DNA of 18,770 bases from Deltaproteobacteria bacterium RBG_13_61_14 (lineage in GTDB: Bacteria > RBG-13-61-14): contig MGQK01000132.1 of NCBI GenBank assembly GCA_001797815.1, positions 25,666 through 44,435 of the forward strand, in the 5' to 3' direction. The notes below the pieces were generated by a model that worked only from the letters and a program-made list of their open reading frames with translations, did no database searches and was not told the DNA's origin. Both the position numbers and the translations under genes were made by a program. This document shows positions 1,888 through 10,067 of the stretch, in pieces; the first letter of the stretch is position 1, and each line of letters begins with the position of its first letter.

Positions 1888-3420
1888 CTAATTTATCAAA
1901 GTATCCCAAAGGACCGCATCTGATTTCTCTTTTGCATAAGCCGGCCGGAGGATACGGCTCATGAGGTAGCCGACTACAATCACCGTCACGCTGGTCACCA
2001 CGCCCGTCATGATCGGGTCCCAGGGGAATTTCAGCCAGGGGTAAGCGTTGGTGATGACCCCGGCATATTGCTCCGAGCCCCAGAGGGTGACGAGCAGCCC
2101 GGCCGCGATCCCGGCGAGCACGCCGCGGGCGTGGGCGCGGCGGGAGAAGAGGGCGAGGGCGAAGACGCCGGCGATGCCGCCGCCGATGATGGCCACGACC
2201 TCGAAGTAGAAGTTGAGGAAGGTCTGGACGCGGATCATGGCGAGGGCGAGGACGATGCCGAGCGCGCCCCAGGCGAAGGTGAGCCAGCGGGCGAGGGAGA
2301 GGGCGCGGCTTTCGGGCGCGTCGGGCCGGAGGAAGCGGCGGTAGAGGTCGGTGACGATGAGGGTGGAGAGCGCGTTCATGGAGGAATCGGCGGTGGACAT
2401 GGCCGCGGCGAAGAGTCCGGCGAGGAGCAGGCCGGAGAGGCCGGAGGGGAGTTGGGTGGCGATGAAGTGGGGGAAGACCTTGTCGCCTTTGCCGTTGGCC
2501 AGGAACTCGCTGACGCGCGGGTCGGGATGATGCTGGTAAAAGACAAAGAGCATGGTGCCGACCAGCAGGAAGAGGGCCCAGACCGGGACCGAGCCGAGCG
2601 CGCCGATCAGGGCCGCCTTTCGGGCCTCGGCGTCGGAGGCGGCGCACTGGTAGCGCTGGACCTGGTTTTGGTTCCCGGCCAGGAAGTAGAAGAAGTTGAG
2701 GAGTCCGGAGAGGGCGAGCACCCAGAAGGTGGGCCGGGCGAGAGAGGGCGAGAGGTCGAGGAGGCGGAACTTGCCTGCGCCGAAGGCTTCGGAGGCGGCG
2801 CCGAAGAAACCGCCCGGCACTTGGAGGCTCACCACGAAAACCACGGCCAGACCTCCGGCAAAGAGGACCAGGGTCTGGAGCACGTCGGTCCAGATCACGC
2901 CCTTGATCCCGCCGGCCGCGCTATAGGCCGCGGTGATAGCGCCCATGCCGGTGATCACCGCGACCAGGGGCCAGCCGGTGATGGTGTGGATCACCAGCGA
3001 GACCAGATAGAGGACCATGGCCAGGCGGGTGAGCTCGGCGGTGACCAGGACGAAGAGGGTAAAGAGCCGGACCCGGGGTCCGAAGCGGAGTTCGATGAAC
3101 TCGTTGACCGAGACGCGGACGTAGCGGCGATAAAAGGGGACCACGGCCAGCGCGCCCGCGAAAACCAGGACCGGCAGCATCAGGCCTTGCACCAGGTATT
3201 GCCAGTCGTGGATCAAGGATTTGCCGGGATAAGCCACGTAAGTAACCGAGGAGATACAGGTGCCGAGGATGGAGAGACCCAAGGCCCAGCCGGGGATTTT
3301 GCGGCTGCCGACGAAATAGTCCTCGGTGGTCCGATCGCGCCGGCTCACGTAAACGCCGATAGCCACGATTACCGTGAAATAGGCCGCTAAAAAGGCCCAA
3401 TCCAACAGGCCGAGGCGCAT
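1888..3420 (-). CDS. Sodium:solute symporter (SSS/SLC5 family)
   Basis: This is a 510-residue, very hydrophobic protein with about 13 predicted membrane helices, the normal size for the SSS family. These carriers import a solute such as a sugar, amino acid, carboxylate or vitamin with Na+. The N-terminus has the family hallmark DYFVGSRKIPGWALG followed by LGTCISSVTYVAYPGKS, the region of helix 1 that forms the substrate and Na+ sites. Further family features are AAYSAAGGIKGVIWTDVLQ, and AAMSTADSSMNALSTLIVTD for the second Na+-site helix. The ATG at 3420 is preceded by GGGGGACC. It lies 80 nt downstream of the ACR3 gene on the same strand, but has its own candidate promoter, so membership of the arsenic operon is uncertain. 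Substrate unknown. Confidence 0.9.
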   Translation of the reverse strand: MRLGLLDWAFLAAYFTVIVAIGVYVSRRDRTTEDYFVGSRKIPGWALGLSILGTCISSVTYVAYPGKSLIHDWQYLVQGLMLPVLVFAGALAVVPFYRRYVRVSVNEFIELRFGPRVRLFTLFVLVTAELTRLAMVLYLVSLVIHTITGWPLVAVITGMGAITAAYSAAGGIKGVIWTDVLQTLVLFAGGLAVVFVVSLQVPGGFFGAASEAFGAGKFRLLDLSPSLARPTFWVLALSGLLNFFYFLAGNQNQVQRYQCAASDAEARKAALIGALGSVPVWALFLLVGTMLFVFYQHHPDPRVSEFLANGKGDKVFPHFIATQLPSGLSGLLLAGLFAAAMSTADSSMNALSTLIVTDLYRRFLRPDAPESRALSLARWLTFAWGALGIVLALAMIRVQTFLNFYFEVVAIIGGGIAGVFALALFSRRAHARGVLAGIAAGLLVTLWGSEQYAGVITNAYPWLKFPWDPIMTGVVTSVTVIVVGYLMSRILRPAYAKEKSDAVLWDTLIN

Positions 3421-3500: not shown

Positions 3501-4586
3501 TCACGGTCGCATCGTCGGCGCGCCGTAGAACTTGCGCCCGAGCCAGAGCGAGACATTGACCAGCCCGATCAGGGCCGGCACTTCGACCAGCGGCCCGATG
3601 ACCGCGGCGAAAGCGGCGCCATGGTTGATGCCGAAGGTGGCGATGGCCACGGCGATGGCCAGCTCGAAGTTGTTGGACGCGGCGGTGAAGCTGAGGGTGG
3701 CCGCCTGTCCATAGTTCGCGCCGACCTTGCGGCTCATGAAGAACGAGATAAAGAACATCACCCCGAAGTAAATGAGCAGGGGGATGGCGATGCGCACCAC
3801 GTCCAGCGGGAGCTGCACGATGAACTCGCCCTTGAACGAGAACATCACGACGATGGTGAAGAGCAGCGCGATGAGCGTGACCGGGCTGATCTTGGGGATG
3901 AACTTTTCGTGGTACCATTGCTTGTCCTTCAGGTTGATCAGGGTGAAGCGCGTGATCACCCCGGCCAGGAAGGGGATGCCGAGGTAGATGAAGACGCTCT
4001 TGGCGATCTCGGCGATGGTGATGTTGACCGCCACGCCCGCGAGGCCGAACCAGGTGGGCAGCACGGTGATGAAGAGGTAGGCGTAGACCGAGAAGAAGAG
4101 GACCTGGAAGATGGAGTTGAACGCCACCAGGCCGGCGCAATACTCGGTGTCGCCCTTGGCCAGGTCGTTCCAGACAATGACCATGGCAATGCAGCGGGCC
4201 AGGCCGATCATGATCAGCCCCACCATGTATTCGGGCTTGTCGTGCAGGAAGAGTACCGCCAGGCCGAACATCAGGAACGGCCCCACGATCCAGTTCTGGA
4301 CCAGGGAAAGCCCGAGGACCTTGAAGTTCCGGAAGACCGGTCCCATTTCCTCGTAGCGGACTTTGGCCAGCGGCGGGTACATCATCAGGATCAGCCCGAT
4401 GGCGATGGGGATCGAGGTCGTCCCCACGCTGAACTTATCGAGCCAGGGCACGATCCCGGGGAAGAGATAGCCGGAACCCACGCCCACGGCCATGGCCAGG
4501 AAGATCCACACCGTGAGGAAGCGGTCGAGAAAGGATAGGCGCCGGGCGACGCCGCCGGACGCGAGGAGTTGAGCTTCATTTGTCAT
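3501..4586 (-). CDS. acr3: ACR3-family arsenite efflux permease
   Basis: This 361-residue inner-membrane protein with about ten helices expels arsenite (or antimonite) using the proton gradient. It belongs to the bile/arsenite/riboflavin transporter superfamily. Family features are [16 protein letters not shown], the essential cysteine motif [16 protein letters not shown] (Cys132, matching the cysteine known to be needed in ACR3) and [17 protein letters not shown]. The conserved C-terminal glutamate lies in [13 protein letters not shown]. The start ATG 4586 follows GGGGGT. It is the last arsenic gene on this strand, 67 nt downstream of the ArsG-like gene, and probably belongs to the arsR-led operon. 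The family call is secure from the cysteine motif and the complete length. Confidence 0.94.
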
Positions 4587-4653: not shown

Positions 4654-5346
4654 TCAAAAGTTCACCTGGAAAATATAGGTCAGGCAATAATAGATTCCCA
4701 CCAAAATAAAAATCCCTCCCGTCAGCCGGCGGGCCCATCGCTCCACCAGGGCCAGCCGGTCAAAAATCCTGCCCACCGACCGGGCGCTGAAGGCGAGCGC
4801 GATGGCGAAGGCCACCACCGGAAGCCCGGTGCCCAGCCCGTAAAGGGCCGGCATCAGTCCCGGGGATTGATGTTTCAAGGCGAGCGGGATCAGGCTGCCG
4901 AAGAAGAGCGCGGCGGAAACCGGGCAGAAGGAGAGCGCGAACACGATCCCCAATAAGCCGGCGCCCCAGACCCCGGCCCGCTCCATTTGCCCCTGGACTT
5001 TTTCTCCCGGGCCCCAGGAGGGAACGGGAAGTGAAATCCAGTCGAGCAAAAACATGCCGGCCAGGATCAGGACCGGGCCCAGGATTTGGTTCATGTATTT
5101 TTGCAGGAAGTTGGAAAGGCCCGGAACCTTCAACAGGCCGGCCACGATCAGAGCGCCCAGCGCGAGGTAGGTGAGGATGCGACCCAGGGTATAAAGCAGG
5201 CCGGCGAAGAGGACTTGCCGGCTCCGGCCCAGGCGGTTGCCGAGATAGGAGATGGCCGCGACGTTGGTCGCAAGCGGACAGGGGCTGATCGAGGTCAGGA
5301 TCCCCAGCCAGAGCGCCGCGGCCAGCCCGGAAAGAGAAAGGCTCAT
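4654..5346 (-). CDS. ArsG-like / CcdA-type membrane protein (thiol relay or aromatic arsenical efflux)
   Basis: This is a 230-residue protein with about six membrane helices and the CcdA/DsbD internal pseudo-repeat. Half one carries [10 protein letters not shown] (Cys23) and half two carries [10 protein letters not shown] (Cys141). In CcdA these paired cysteines move reducing equivalents across the membrane. The subfamily found beside ArsF-like proteins is called ArsG and was described in the arsEFG genes of Shewanella putrefaciens, which act on nitrophenyl arsenicals. Its start overlaps the arsF-like stop by 4 nt (ATGA), so the two are made together. It may be an exporter of aromatic arsenicals, as ArsG is named, or a thiol-electron conduit, as its cysteine pair suggests. 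The fold is sure; the exact function is not. Confidence 0.8.
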
Positions 5347-5864
5347 AGGTCCTCGACCAGGTAAGCCCGGACCTCGTCCTGGATGTATTTCTGAAAGTCG
5401 GCCTTGACCGTGAACAAGGTCCAGACCTGGTCCAGGTTTTTCCAGCGCGCCTCCCGGCCGTGATGCCGATCCGACAGGATCACGGACTTGGTGTAGAGCT
5501 GGTAGTCCTGGGCAAAGTGTTGATTCCCCGGCTCTTCAACATTGACCACCTGCCAGGTCAGGGTTCCACTTTTCAGTTCTTCCGCAAACCCGCTCTGGAT
5601 GGCCTCCTGGGTATAAGCCTCAATCTTCAAGCAGCTCGAGCAGCGGGCCCGGCCATGAAAATAATAGGCAACTACCTGGTGAGCAGGAGGAAGAGCCGCC
5701 TGGTCCGGTTCAGTTGCCGAAGCCGGGGCAGTTGAAGTGGGCAGGGGCTTGGTCGGCGGGTTGGGAGCTTCGGACCTTTGCCGCGATTCTTTGGCGATCA
5801 AAAAGGCGACGCTGGCCAGGACCAAAGCCAGGAGCAAAGCCGTTAGGATTTTTCTGGCCTTCAT
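5343..5864 (-). CDS. ArsF-like membrane-anchored CxxC protein
   Basis: The protein has 173 residues from ATG 5864. It has an N-terminal uncleaved-type membrane helix (MKARKILTAL onward), a Pro/Ala/Ser/Thr-rich linker at about 31-62, then a thioredoxin-like domain. That domain begins VVAYYFHGRARCSSC, with the redox pair Cys75 and Cys78. The domain should face the periplasm. It matches what annotators call the nitrophenyl compound nitroreductase subunit ArsF family, from the arsEFG organoarsenical genes. A longer ATG at 5930 would put about 22 hydrophilic residues ahead of the helix and has GGAAGGG directly against the ATG, which is too close for initiation. ATG 5864 has AAGGGG about 12 nt upstream, so the start is not certain. 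It is coupled to the ArsG-like gene by ATGA. Confidence 0.75.
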   Translation of the reverse strand: MKARKILTALLLALVLASVAFLIAKESRQRSEAPNPPTKPLPTSTAPASATEPDQAALPPAHQVVAYYFHGRARCSSCLKIEAYTQEAIQSGFAEELKSGTLTWQVVNVEEPGNQHFAQDYQLYTKSVILSDRHHGREARWKNLDQVWTLFTVKADFQKYIQDEVRAYLVEDL

Positions 5865-5939
5865 TGCTTTAGTTACCCCTTTTTCTCTTCTGAATAAGAC
5901 CTGAAGGTGCAAGGGCGATGCGCGAACCATCCCTTCCGG

Positions 5940-6200
5940 TCAAGATCCTTGGGACTTCTGAATCAGCTCCTTGACCTTGGCGACATTGGGCAATGGCTTG
6001 CCCTGATGCGCCACCTTTTCGTTGATCACCAGCCCCGGCGTCATCATCAGGTACTTGCGAATCTCGTTCAGGTCCGTGACATATTTTACTTCCGCATCCC
6101 TCCCCAGTCCCAGCTCCTGGAGCGCGGTCTGCGTCGTTTCCAGGAGCGTCTTGCAGTTGATGCACCCCGGCCCTAACACCTTGATCTTCAAATCCGCCAT
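5940..6200 (-). CDS. Small thioredoxin-fold CxxC protein (TM0996/redox-active disulfide type; possible ArsE)
   Basis: This is an 86-residue cytosolic protein of the small thioredoxin family known as redox-active disulfide protein 2. The active site GPGCINCK (Cys13, Cys16) follows the first beta strand. The cis-proline region MTPGLVINEKVAHQGKPL is typical of the fold. The start ATG 6200 has a strong GAGGAGGA Shine-Dalgarno, part of which lies inside the previous gene's end (2-nt gap), indicating coupling. Such proteins often sit between a DUF318/ArsP_1 permease and ArsR, exactly as here. In the arsEFG scheme it sits in the ArsE position. It could pass electrons to the ArsG/ArsF pair or reduce an arsenical directly. 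Whether it corresponds to ArsE is inference. Confidence 0.85.
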   Translation of the reverse strand: MADLKIKVLGPGCINCKTLLETTQTALQELGLGRDAEVKYVTDLNEIRKYLMMTPGLVINEKVAHQGKPLPNVAKVKELIQKSQGS

Positions 6201-6457: not shown

Positions 6458-6477
6458 GCGCGCTTAAAAAAGCGCGC
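6458..6477. other. Hairpin straddling the permease stop codon
   Basis: GCGCGCTT, a 4-nt AAAA loop, then AAGCGCGC (plus strand) form a perfect 8-bp stem exactly over the TAA of the permease gene. On the minus-strand transcript the loop is UUUU, and no U-run follows the stem. It may be an mRNA processing or partial termination point between the permease and downstream genes. Confidence 0.45.
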
Positions 6478-7762
6478 CGTAGATCATGCCGCTGAAGGTG
6501 GCCATCACGACCACCAGCGCGATATAGACAACCGTCTTGGCGGTGCCGAGCACGCTCCGGATCACCAGCATATTCGGAAGTGAAAGCGCCGGCCCGGCCA
6601 GGAGCAGCGCCAGCGCCGGACCCTGGCCCATGCCGCTGCCGAGCAGGCCTTGCACAATCGGGACCTCGGTGAGCGTGGCAAAATACATGAAGGCTCCGGC
6701 GACCGCAGCAAAGAGGTTCGCGGCCCAAGAGTTCCCGCCCACGGCCCGGCCGACCCAGGCCGAAGGGATCAGCCCCTCTTCTCCCGGCCGGCCCAGAAGA
6801 ATCCCGGCGGCCAGGACCCCGAGCAAAAGCAGGGGCAGGATTTGCTTGGCAAAGCCCCAGGTCTGGCTGAACCACTCGCCGCTCTCGCCGTCCTCGCCGG
6901 CGGTGAGCACGGCCAGGCCGAGCGCCCCGGCCGCAAACGGGAGCAGGGGAACTTCCGGAAAGACAAGCGCCAGGATCGCGGTCGGAACCGCGACCGCCAG
7001 CACTTTCCACCATTTCAACCCGAACCATGCGATCAGCATGGCGGCGAAGCTAATGGCGGCCGCGGCGGTAAGCAGCCACTTGACTGAGTAAATCGCGGAC
7101 CAGAAACCGGCGGCATCTTCAGCTTTGCCCCAGTTGGCAAAGACCAGGATCGCGACCATGACCGCAAAATAAATCGCGGTCTGCCAGAGCGGCCGGCCGG
7201 CTTCCGGCTCGGGCAGGTCCGCCTGGGCCTCGGCCTTTTGCATTTCTTCTCTCCGGAAGATCAGGAACATGAGCAGGCCGATCACCACACTGAAAAGTAT
7301 CGCGCCGACCGCGCGGGCCACGCCCAGCTTAAGCCCGAGGACGCGGGCGGTCAGGATGATGGCGAGCACGTTGATGGCCGGGCCGGAGTAGAGGAAGGCG
7401 GTGGCCGGCCCGAGCCCGGCGCCCCTCGAGTAGATGCCGGCGAAAAGGGGGAGCACGGTGCAGGAGCACACGGCCAGGATGGTGCCGGAGACCGAGGCCA
7501 CGCCGTAGGCCAGGACCGGGTTGGCCTTGGCGCCTAAATACTTGATCACCGAGGCCTGGCGGACAAAAGCGGCGATGGCGCCGGCGATGAAGAAGGCCGG
7601 GACCAGGCACAGGAGCACGTGCTCGCGGGCGTACCACTTGACCAGGGCCAGCCCTTCCAGAATGGCGTGGTCGAAGCGCTCCCGGCCCACCGGCAGGGTG
7701 TAGGCGATGGCGAACGCGGCGGCAATCGCCGCCAGAGTCTTAGCTTCTTTTTTCCAATCCAT
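6464..7762 (-). CDS. DUF318/ArsP_1-type permease (putative organoarsenical or metal exporter)
   Basis: This is a 432-residue protein with about ten predicted helices in two halves. The first half has the family signature SGTILAVCSCTVLPLFAGIY (Cys99, Cys101), followed by YSGPAINVLAIILT. The second half repeats the pattern as FATLTEVPIVQGLLGSGMG and LLLAGPALSLPNMLVI. Families named ArsP include exporters of trivalent organoarsenicals, and many DUF318 members lie in ars or metal operons. The start is ATG 7762 (MDWKKEAKTL). The open frame runs 34 codons further upstream into arsR, but those residues are not membrane-like and overlap arsR out of frame. It lies 40 nt after arsR. Substrate by context: an arsenical. 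Chemistry not proven. Confidence 0.82.
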   Translation of the reverse strand: MDWKKEAKTLAAIAAAFAIAYTLPVGRERFDHAILEGLALVKWYAREHVLLCLVPAFFIAGAIAAFVRQASVIKYLGAKANPVLAYGVASVSGTILAVCSCTVLPLFAGIYSRGAGLGPATAFLYSGPAINVLAIILTARVLGLKLGVARAVGAILFSVVIGLLMFLIFRREEMQKAEAQADLPEPEAGRPLWQTAIYFAVMVAILVFANWGKAEDAAGFWSAIYSVKWLLTAAAAISFAAMLIAWFGLKWWKVLAVAVPTAILALVFPEVPLLPFAAGALGLAVLTAGEDGESGEWFSQTWGFAKQILPLLLLGVLAAGILLGRPGEEGLIPSAWVGRAVGGNSWAANLFAAVAGAFMYFATLTEVPIVQGLLGSGMGQGPALALLLAGPALSLPNMLVIRSVLGTAKTVVYIALVVVMATFSGMIYGALF

Positions 7763-7802
7763 GATCTGGAATCCGCGACCGCAGAGCGGCAGCGGCTGCC
7801 TC

Positions 7803-8123
7803 CTACTTGACCAGGGCCAATTGCTTTTGGGCGGTGGTTTTGAGCGCGGATTCCACGCAGTCAAACAGGTCGAGCAGACAAGGACAGCTCAGGCTGTAGA
7901 AGACCTGGTTGCCGCGCTTCTCGTCGGCCACGATCCCCGCGGCCTTGAGGATGGAAAGGTGCTTGGACACGGTGGAGATGTCGGCGCCGACCATCTCGGT
8001 GAGTTTGCACACGCAGATTTCCCGGCGGGCCAACTGGTCCACCAGGAAGAGCCGGGTGGGATGGGCCAGGGCCTTGACGATCCTGGCCCGGGCCGCGAAG
8101 CGCGCCTGGGTTTTAGGATCCAC
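7803..8123 (-). CDS. arsR: ArsR-family metalloid-responsive repressor
   Basis: This is a 106-residue winged-helix repressor of the ArsR/SmtB family. It binds operator DNA and releases it when As(III) or a related ion is bound. The sensor site EICVCKL (Cys37, Cys39) in helix 3 matches the classic ELCVCDL arsenic site. The recognition helix is ISTVSKHLSILKAAG and the wing is EKRGNQVFYSL. Three further cysteines, Cys80, Cys82 and Cys89 (SCPCLLDLFDC), could complete or add a site. The start is GTG 8123, because a perfect AAGGAGGT sits 4 nt upstream. An ATG at 8171 lies above the -10 box and is not used. It is the first gene of the minus-strand operon and likely represses its own promoter. Confidence 0.95.
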   Translation of the reverse strand: MDPKTQARFAARARIVKALAHPTRLFLVDQLARREICVCKLTEMVGADISTVSKHLSILKAAGIVADEKRGNQVFYSLSCPCLLDLFDCVESALKTTAQKQLALVK

Positions 8124-8325: not shown

Positions 8326-9006
8326 GTGGCCAGCTTTGTTTACATGAAGATCCTGGAGTCGCAGCCCCGCCGCTATGACCGGGGCATCGCCTGGCTCAGC
8401 CTGGGCCGGGCGCCGGCAATCAAGCAGCGGATCGCGCAGGAGTTCGGCCGGGAAGGCGTGCAGGTCTTGGAGATCGGCGCGGGCACGGGCGAGCTGGCGG
8501 TCTTGCTGGCGAAAACCGGGGCCAAGGTCGCCGGCTTTGACCAGTCCGCGGCCATGCTGGAAGTGGCCCGGCAAAAGGTCGCGGCTCAGGGGTTGGCCGA
8601 GCGGGTCAAGATCCGCGAGCTGGGCGTGGCCGAGATGGACCGGGCCTTCACCGACTCCTCCTTTGACCTGGTGGTGAGCACGCTGGTTTTCAGCGAGCTT
8701 ACCTCCGACGAGCAGCGGTATGCTTTGGCCCAGGCCTTTCGGGTGCTCAAGCCCGGCGGCATCCTGGCGCTGGCCGATGAAGTCCGGCCCGCGACCGGTT
8801 TCAAGCGAATGCTCTACTATCTGATTCGGTTGCCCCTGGCCCTGGTCACGTTCGCGCTGACCCAGACCAGCACGCGGGCGGTGGCGGGCCTGGAGGACAA
8901 GGTGCGGGAGGCCGGGTTCGCGATCGAGCAGGCCGAGAGAAGCGCCTTTGATAGTTTCCTCTACCTGAAAGCCCGCAAAATCCTGGCACAAGAAGGTCGC
9001 TCATGA
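8326..9006 (+). CDS. Class I SAM-dependent methyltransferase, CpaM-like (corrinoid-protein-associated)
   Basis: This is a 226-residue Rossmann-fold methyltransferase. Motif I is VLEIGAGTGELAVLL (47-61), the ribose-binding acidic residue is in GFDQS (Asp72), and motif IV is DLVVSTLVFSEL. The post-motif loop is RVLKPGGILALADE. The N-terminus, starting MASFVYMKILESQPRRYDRG from GTG 8326, resembles the CpaM group found beside HgcAB-like corrinoid proteins. A hydrophobic stretch YYLIRLPLALVTFAL lies near 165-180. It overlaps the next gene by 4 nt (ATGA). By partnership it may methylate the corrinoid protein, its cofactor or a shared substrate; the reaction is not established. ATG 8344 is an alternative start, but would remove the characteristic N-terminus. 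Confidence 0.82.
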   Translation: MASFVYMKILESQPRRYDRGIAWLSLGRAPAIKQRIAQEFGREGVQVLEIGAGTGELAVLLAKTGAKVAGFDQSAAMLEVARQKVAAQGLAERVKIRELGVAEMDRAFTDSSFDLVVSTLVFSELTSDEQRYALAQAFRVLKPGGILALADEVRPATGFKRMLYYLIRLPLALVTFALTQTSTRAVAGLEDKVREAGFAIEQAERSAFDSFLYLKARKILAQEGRS

Positions 9007-10067
9007 ACAAGCTCTGGGGATTCATCGTCGCCTACTTTCTGCGCTGGTTTCCGCACGGACTCGAACCGGGCCTGCGCCGGATCGGGAACCCCGGGCCGGA
9101 AAGCCCGGTCCTCGTTAGCGGCAACTTTTCCCTGACCCTGAAAAGGCTGATCCGGTCTCTGGTCGGGCAGGACCTGTGGCTGCTGGTGGCCAACTCCCGG
9201 GGCATCAATGTCTGGTGCGCGGCCGTGGGCGGCATGTTCACCCACCACAACGTGATTGCGGCGATCAAGACCTCGGGCCTGGCCGATCAGGTTCGGCATC
9301 GGGAAGTGATCCTGCCTCAGCTCTGCGCGGCGGGCATGGACGTCAAGGCCATCCGGGAGGAGGCCGGCTTCCAGGTCCGCTTCGGGCCGGTCCGGGCGGA
9401 GGATCTCCCGGCTTACCTGGCCCAAGGCAAGAAGAAGACGGATGCCATGAGCCGCTTCCGTTTTGACCTGCGGCATCGCCTGGACATGCTCCTTTCCAAC
9501 AACACCATGTTCTACCTGATCGTGGCCATCCCCCTCGCCATCTTCTGGCCTCACCGGCTCCTGGCCTTCACCCTGCTCTTCTGGGCCGCGGCCTTCTACC
9601 TTTACTTGTTGTTCCCGTATCTCCCGGGCAAGACCGGCTGGAGCCGATCCCTTTACTCCGCCCTGGCCGTGGTCCTCGCCATCCCGGCTGCCGATTTCTT
9701 CCGCGCCGGCCAGCCCTTCCTCCACTACGGCTGGATGATCGCCGTCGTCCTGGTCTTCTCTACCGTCGGCTTTGATGCCGCCGGCATCCTCGCGGCCATG
9801 CCCAGCGACGCCGAAGCCTTCCTCCACCGCCTCGGCATCAAGCGGCTCGGCTCGCTCTTGCAGGAAAAGACCCTGGGCCGGGTCGCGCTCGACCGGGAAA
9901 AGTGCCGGGGCGACATGATCTGCTACTCCATCTGCCCGGTCGGGGTATTCGGCGAGCTGGACCCGGACAAAAAGATCACCCTCCCTTGGCAAAACGCTTG
10001 CTTCGCCTGCGGCGCTTGCGTCAAACAATGCCCCCACGACGCCTTGAGCTTGCAACCCAGACCTTGA
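9003..10067 (+). CDS. HgcAB-like fusion protein (corrinoid domain, membrane helices, ferredoxin domain)
   Basis: This 354-residue protein joins on one chain what HgcA and HgcB provide separately in mercury methylators. Residues about 30-140 form a corrinoid-binding domain like that of HgcA and the CFeSP large subunit. It has the cap-helix motif NVWCAAVGG with Cys72, the residue that ligates cobalt in HgcA, and the family segment VILPQLCAAGMD. Residues about 165-265 hold four hydrophobic helices. Residues 297-350 are a two-cluster ferredoxin domain, C301xxD304xxC307xxxC311P and C333xxC336xxC339xxxC343P. Departures from true HgcAB are the loss of the GK after the cap motif, Asp304 in place of a cysteine, and no C-terminal cysteine pair. 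Fused HgcAB-like proteins are known in other microbes and are not thought to methylate mercury. Likely role: corrinoid-dependent methyl transfer with built-in cobalt reduction; substrate unknown. Confidence 0.88.
   Translation: MNKLWGFIVAYFLRWFPHGLEPGLRRIGNPGPESPVLVSGNFSLTLKRLIRSLVGQDLWLLVANSRGINVWCAAVGGMFTHHNVIAAIKTSGLADQVRHREVILPQLCAAGMDVKAIREEAGFQVRFGPVRAEDLPAYLAQGKKKTDAMSRFRFDLRHRLDMLLSNNTMFYLIVAIPLAIFWPHRLLAFTLLFWAAAFYLYLLFPYLPGKTGWSRSLYSALAVVLAIPAADFFRAGQPFLHYGWMIAVVLVFSTVGFDAAGILAAMPSDAEAFLHRLGIKRLGSLLQEKTLGRVALDREKCRGDMICYSICPVGVFGELDPDKKITLPWQNACFACGACVKQCPHDALSLQPRP

Follow-up and report, generated by a model that had tools for sequence, protein, structure and literature searches.

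A little-studied CpaM-HgcAB module near metal-sensor genes: a suggested methylator of toxic metals or metalloids

The cpaM gene and the HgcAB-like fusion gene that follows it form a real, conserved module in the window, by which is meant the whole stretch of 18,770 nucleotides analyzed here (positions 25,666 to 44,435 of contig MGQK01000132.1 from Deltaproteobacteria bacterium RBG_13_61_14). The domain content of the two proteins, their invariant pairing, their natural fusions in other genomes and a proximity to metal-sensor genes that is not random are all observed. From these we infer the methyl route through CpaM, its chemistry, and its substrate: the pair may constitute a SAM-fed corrinoid methyl-transfer machine that acts on thiophilic metal(loid)s, a reading to which we give a probability of about 0.5. 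The acceptor is probably a metal(loid), and in the window the neighboring genes suggest arsenic. The features of the window are as follows.

8326-9006, plus strand: cpaM, corrinoid protein-associated SAM methyltransferase, 226 amino acids (NF043040 and Pfam)
9003-10067, plus strand: HgcAB-like fusion protein, 354 amino acids (NF043039 and fold match)
9051-9422, plus strand: corrinoid-binding HgcA/CFeSP-type domain, residues 17-140 (match to the CFeSP gamma C-terminal domain, PF03599)
9207-9218, plus strand: cap-helix motif NVWC, residues 69-72, with C72 the equivalent of HgcA Cys93
9468-9791, plus strand: four predicted transmembrane helices, residues 156-263 (AlphaFold model and hydropathy)
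9879-10061, plus strand: two-[4Fe-4S] ferredoxin (HgcB-like) domain without the C-terminal cysteines of HgcB (Pfam Fer4 families)
8181-8153, minus strand: predicted sigma-70-like promoter of the ars operon, TTGACA-17-TATATT (11/12 consensus positions)
7803-8123, minus strand: ArsR/SmtB metalloregulator with an ICVC motif (NF033788, 86.7 bits; cutoff, 55)
6464-7864, minus strand: ArsP_1/DUF318 permease, likely start near 7762 (PF03773, 235.8 bits)
5940-6200, minus strand: ArsE/MTH895-type thioredoxin-like protein (TIGR00412, 73.2 bits; cutoff, 62)
5343-5930, minus strand: ArsF-family protein (NF040494, 116.1 bits; cutoff, 60)
4654-5346, minus strand: ArsG-family efflux permease (NF040495, 292.4 bits; cutoff, 200)
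3501-4586, minus strand: Acr3 arsenite efflux transporter (TIGR00832, 459.9 bits; cutoff, 282.8)

The product of cpaM, for which an alternative start is possible at ATG 8344 (MKILES), scored 293.5 bits against NF043040, the curated NCBIfam model named "corrinoid protein-associated methyltransferase" (CpaM; cutoff, 180), and is a class I SAM methyltransferase with the motif LEIGAGTG and Pfam SAM-methyltransferase matches over threshold. The adjacent corrinoid protein implied by the family name is supplied in the window by the HgcAB-like gene, which overlaps cpaM by 4 nucleotides (ATGA, 9003-9006) and whose product scored 394.6 bits against NF043039 (cutoff, 285), covering model positions 3-350 of 350. 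The AlphaFold model of the fusion (pLDDT, 88.6; pTM, 0.83) had as its top PDB fold match the HgcA chain of the 2020 HgcAB model 9a0b (E value, 8e-12), followed by the corrinoid iron-sulfur protein CFeSP, and the corrinoid domain matched the CFeSP gamma C-terminal domain at the sequence level (E value, 2e-12). The NVWC motif was invariant across all aligned CpaM-associated HgcA-like proteins, whereas CFeSP has VLT at the same place; an ILPQL segment is also present, and the ferredoxin domain spans about residues 293-353. The first-pass annotation had described a single chain with an HgcA-type corrinoid domain, membrane helices, and a two-cluster ferredoxin, overlapping by 4 nucleotides a CpaM-like SAM methyltransferase gene; the family models, the AlphaFold model, and the fold and Pfam matches confirm both descriptions. 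No promoter or operator was found on the cpaM side of the window.

The same annotation had placed the pair divergently from an ArsR-led operon of at least five arsenic-type genes, and family models identify six on the minus strand, in the order arsR-arsP-arsE-arsF-arsG-acr3. The open reading frame of arsR could begin as far out as 8171. The next gene on this strand after acr3, about 80 bp away, encodes a sodium:solute symporter (1888-3420, minus strand) and may be part of the operon. At another locus, L124 (3051-8916, genome G036), canonical hgcAB has neighbors of the kinds seen in the window's ars operon: Acr3, an ArsE-type thioredoxin, and two ArsF-like genes.

Scanning of genome contigs and whole genomes yielded 29 CpaM loci from bacteria and archaea, and an HgcA-like gene follows or is fused to CpaM in every one of them (29/29). 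Across a broad sample of bacteria, 12 of 386 genomes (about 3%) encoded CpaM, and phylum-wide searches added few further members because the family is sparse and patchy. Five canonical HgcA loci (L124 to L127 and L153) gave no CpaM match. Plasmid spread was considered and set aside, with no HgcAB-like match among 72,556 plasmid records. Three natural single-chain fusions were recovered, one CpaM::HgcAB and two CpaM::HgcA. The former (L116) has 592 amino acids, and its methyltransferase domain, the only part of that model compared, folds like Coq5 (Z score, 22.3). The latter, L013 and L122, share the order ArsR-family gene, CpaM::HgcA, and HgcB-like ferredoxin, and L122 belongs to another phylum than the window's genome. 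L013 is located in the window's own genome, and the organism therefore has two CpaM modules.

L013, contig 51 of the window's genome, 3868-6160: second module, comprising an ArsR-family gene, CpaM::HgcA (531 amino acids), and an HgcB-like ferredoxin

The ferredoxin of L013 contains the motif CMECGAC and ends in a cysteine-rich stretch, RCACAC; farther downstream of the module is a ZIP-type transporter. Genome G311 contains both a canonical ArsR-HgcA-HgcB locus (L153, 9020-11003) and the ArsR-CpaM::HgcA-HgcB locus L122 (9172-11850). Judged by sequence likeness, AmmeMemoRadiSam-type radical SAM genes adjoin CpaM-HgcAB in two distant lineages (L021, 2737-3843; L119, 11403-13372, the latter also with a MEMO-like gene), and a putative ArsM-like methyltransferase lies about 7 kb from CpaM-HgcAB on an Aminicenantes contig (L022, 18772-19635).

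Metal(loid)-sensor genes are enriched beside the CpaM pair more than chance would allow. The 6-kb flanks of the 29 CpaM loci (232 kb) were compared with 39 arbitrary segments of CpaM genomes (418 kb), and an ArsR or MerR gene was present within 6 kb at 13 of the 29 loci (the window, L013, L023, L024, L026, L027, L028, L121, L122, L147, L148, L149, and L152) and in none of the control segments (Fisher P = 2e-6). Treating the six Nitrospinota loci as one gave 9/24 versus 0/39 (Fisher P = 6e-5). Several of the survey queries were themselves taken from CpaM loci, and every ArsR or MerR assignment was reproduced with a query from a different locus. A test on 11 CpaM genomes with the Pfam ArsR model PF01022 is free of this circularity: the model matched 40 times in 40 Mb, with matches within 1 kb of 4 of the 12 CpaM modules (expected, 0.024; P = 1.4e-8) and P = 1.6e-5 for 6-kb flanks, the flank sizes having been picked after the loci had been seen. 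The window's genome has four ArsR matches, two of which adjoin its two CpaM modules. When all flanking proteins were compared with one another, most families common to several lineages proved to be metal related; the others were a lexA-like gene, a single radical SAM family, and common signaling or transport domains. The MerR-family proteins of L028, L147, and L026 score below the MerR equivalog cutoff and have three cysteines at spacings of 35 and 9, an arrangement that fits MerR and also other thiolate sensors. No metal-sensor gene was found within 6 kb at 16 of the 29 loci, several of which are on incomplete contigs; these sensor-free loci include the window's two closest relatives, L019 and L115.

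The genes that accompany the sensors differ between loci. Acr3, ArsP, ArsG, ArsF, and ArsE occur together only in the window among the 29 loci; Acr3 is encoded in 7 of 11 CpaM genomes and adjoins CpaM in one, that of the window, and no ars genes were seen at L019 or L115. The nearest case is L121, in which ArsR, CpaM, and an HgcAB with a cysteine-rich tail are followed by thioredoxin-like and DsbD/ArsG-like proteins, its ArsF/ArsG-like proteins being weaker matches than those of the window. The mer-type neighbors (MerT, MerP, MerA, and MerB) occur in four lineages other than that of the window.

L147 (Nitrospinota): MerR family, DUF169, a MerT-like protein just below the Pfam threshold, and an HMA/MerP-like protein
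L026 (Nitrospirota): MerR and MerT
L027: ArsR, MerT, and MerA
L149, 438-3577, on a short contig: DF-family thioredoxin-like protein, ArsR, MerB-like lyase (PF03243, 38 bits), CpaM, and HgcA without ferredoxin

Six Nitrospinota loci (L024, L028, L147, L148, L150, and L152) and L026 resemble mer operons in which CpaM-HgcA takes the place of MerA. Not every gene is present in each of these loci, which draw on a MerR-family gene, DUF169, a small thioredoxin, HgcA without ferredoxin, and a YHS cysteine-rich protein, with MerT/MerP-like proteins in some. Elsewhere, contig 237 of genome G311 (29751-30110) has a MerB-family match (63 bits) whose reading frame contains two TGA codons; it may encode a selenoprotein or be a broken gene. 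Since arsenic-type and mercury-type neighbors occur at different loci, the link is with metal(loid) sensing generally, and the substrate may differ by locus.

These results divide the proposal made in the first-pass annotation, that the pair may perform corrinoid methyl transfer to a metalloid or organoarsenical that the divergent operon then handles. The corrinoid pair stands, as does a link to metal(loid) sensors (4/12 modules; 13/29 loci); an arsenic-specific association was not upheld by the 29-locus survey. The annotation had named a lack of ars-gene enrichment next to the pair elsewhere as part of what would refute its idea, and because the full export set is found only in the window, that outcome largely holds for arsenic export genes. 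The results nonetheless strengthen the broader notion that the substrate is a metal(loid).

The fusion protein resembles HgcAB in its membrane-anchored corrinoid domain with a cap-helix cysteine (C72 in NVWC) and in its two-cluster ferredoxin, and SAM, the methyl source proposed here for the CpaM pair, is also that of HgcAB (PMC11588087). ArsR and ars genes have likewise been reported near canonical hgcAB (PMC7438021, PMC10349881). The window protein differs in being a single chain, in having a dedicated SAM methyltransferase partner, and in its position in the HgcA-domain tree, in which canonical HgcA forms a single clade (support, 100/100) and a second clade (95/92) holds the CpaM-associated proteins except for the two CpaM::HgcA fusions. 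Both of those fusions fall between the two clades, with an AU p value of 0.30 for placement with the CpaM-associated clade versus true HgcA. The signature motifs of HgcA, NVWCA(A/G/S)GK, and HgcB, C(M/I)EC(G/S)(A/G)C (PMC7536318), are replaced by NVWCAAVG, without the GK of NVWCAAGK, and by CFACGAC. Scores of 171.3 bits against the HgcA model NF040863 (cutoff, 275; true HgcA controls, 423 and 451) and 43.7 bits against the HgcB model NF040864 (cutoff, 99) fall short of both families. Cys73, Cys94, and Cys95 of HgcB, which are needed for Hg methylation (PMC11588087), have no counterparts in the fusion, whose tail after the last cluster motif reads LSLQPRP. Without these signature motifs and cysteines, the fusion is not a canonical mercury methylase, and its assignment as canonical hgcAB is ruled out by motifs, scores, and missing cysteines. 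Published work places fused HgcAB proteins, as paralogues, basally in the HgcA tree (PMC7573106), and two organisms with fused hgcAB, Methanococcoides methylutens and Pyrococcus furiosus, did not methylate mercury (PMC5893877).

Other known systems share parts of this arrangement. The corrinoid-binding domain is about 30% identical over 127 to 129 columns to that of the Wood-Ljungdahl protein CFeSP (AcsC/CdhE), which differs in having neither the cap cysteine nor a membrane domain. CFeSP receives its methyl group from methyl-THF through MeTr, and the window's genome has a separate CFeSP operon of its own (L014). The pairing of ArsM with ArsP or Acr3 offers a parallel, in that a SAM-dependent enzyme methylates a metalloid and its gene lies next to those for arsenic efflux, and anaerobic production of methylarsenite with export by ArsP is a published scheme (PMC11653729). 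However, ArsM acts directly on As(III), whereas CpaM is tied to a corrinoid protein and scores far under the ArsM models. Some CpaM-HgcA loci resemble mer operons in their three-cysteine MerR-family sensors, MerT, and HMA/MerP-like proteins; the Nitrospinota loci differ in having no MerA where CpaM-HgcA stands, and the window in having ars rather than mer genes.

In the mechanism that we propose, CpaM and the HgcAB-like fusion would form one membrane-attached methyl-transfer machine supplied by SAM. The ferredoxin domain would reduce the corrinoid of the HgcA-type domain to Co(I), and CpaM would bind SAM and hand its methyl group to Co(I). By analogy with HgcA Cys93, for which this has been shown, C72 may ligate the cobalt and so prime transfer of the methyl group as a radical or carbanion. 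The acceptor would be a thiophilic metal(loid), for example As(III) or Hg(II), or else an organo-derivative, and the adjoining efflux genes would then export the methylated product. HgcAB itself draws its methyl group from SAM with the help of Co(I), both ferredoxin clusters, and the conserved cysteine (PMC11588087). A role for CpaM is thus obvious, though purified HgcAB requires no separate methyltransferase (PMC11588087) and CpaM could therefore have another one. That partner-free activity counts against the SAM-fed metal(loid) machine, as do the 16 sensor-free loci, the inactive organisms with fused hgcAB, and the cpaM side, on which no operator or promoter was found.

Several of these same points would suit a SAM-to-corrinoid module serving an ordinary, non-metal acceptor in C1 or cofactor metabolism, with the ars operon a chance neighbor: more than half of the loci, the window's closest relatives among them, have no nearby sensor gene, Acr3 adjoins CpaM in a single genome of 11, and the assayed fused-hgcAB organisms made no methylmercury (PMC5893877). 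We consider this unlikely, though the most credible of the alternatives, given an ArsR adjacency far over chance, the MerR, MerT, MerP, MerA, and MerB types among the neighbors, and the mostly metal-related families shared across lineages. A divergent HgcAB that produces methylmercury is a still less probable account. The fold and cap cysteine do resemble HgcA, mercury-resistance gene types occur at other CpaM-HgcA loci, and the second copy in the window's genome has an HgcB-like protein with both the CMECGAC motif and C-terminal cysteines, but the window fusion itself fails both motifs and both cutoffs, has no equivalents of the three HgcB cysteines, and has fused relatives that were inactive when assayed (PMC5893877). 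The least probable reading, which we think would be surprising, is that the system runs in reverse as a demethylase, with Co(I) stripping methyl groups from organo-metal(loid)s taken up by the cell or made by others and so protecting it. The MerB-like organomercurial lyase gene between ArsR and CpaM in L149 and the membership of the window's ArsP_1 and ArsG permeases in families linked to organoarsenicals are consistent with such a role. SAM methyltransferases run essentially irreversibly toward SAH, however, and CpaM therefore fits methyl delivery rather than removal. HgcAB, too, is a methylator (PMC11588087).

A SAM-fed machine acting on metal(loid)s can be extended to a broader and more tentative proposal, which we regard as possible but doubtful in its full form. 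CpaM-HgcA(B) would be a second, SAM-methyltransferase-fed class of metal(loid)-methylating machines, patchy in bacteria and archaea and wired to arsenic and mercury sensors, including in mer-like operons of the nitrite-oxidizing Nitrospinota with CpaM-HgcA in the place of MerA, and the member in the window would handle arsenic together with its divergent ars operon. Both families are already named in NCBIfam, where the two window proteins exceed the curated cutoffs, the CpaM name implies the pairing, and no substrate is assigned; the present analysis adds the link to metal sensors, the CpaM::HgcA(B) fusions, and the mer-type operons. No paper on CpaM, its fusions, or its metal-sensor linkage was found in the literature searched, a search that left out most subscription papers and so does not establish novelty.

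HgcAB has recently been shown to use SAM. With a conserved and sometimes fused SAM methyltransferase and a non-random link to arsenic- and mercury-type sensors, the methyl route can be tested directly, and so can the substrate. Should the Nitrospinota loci act on mercury, they would be relevant to the sites at which methylmercury arises or is lost in oxygenated seawater. Taken together, the observations suggest that CpaM-HgcAB is a little-studied module that methylates toxic metals or metalloids.
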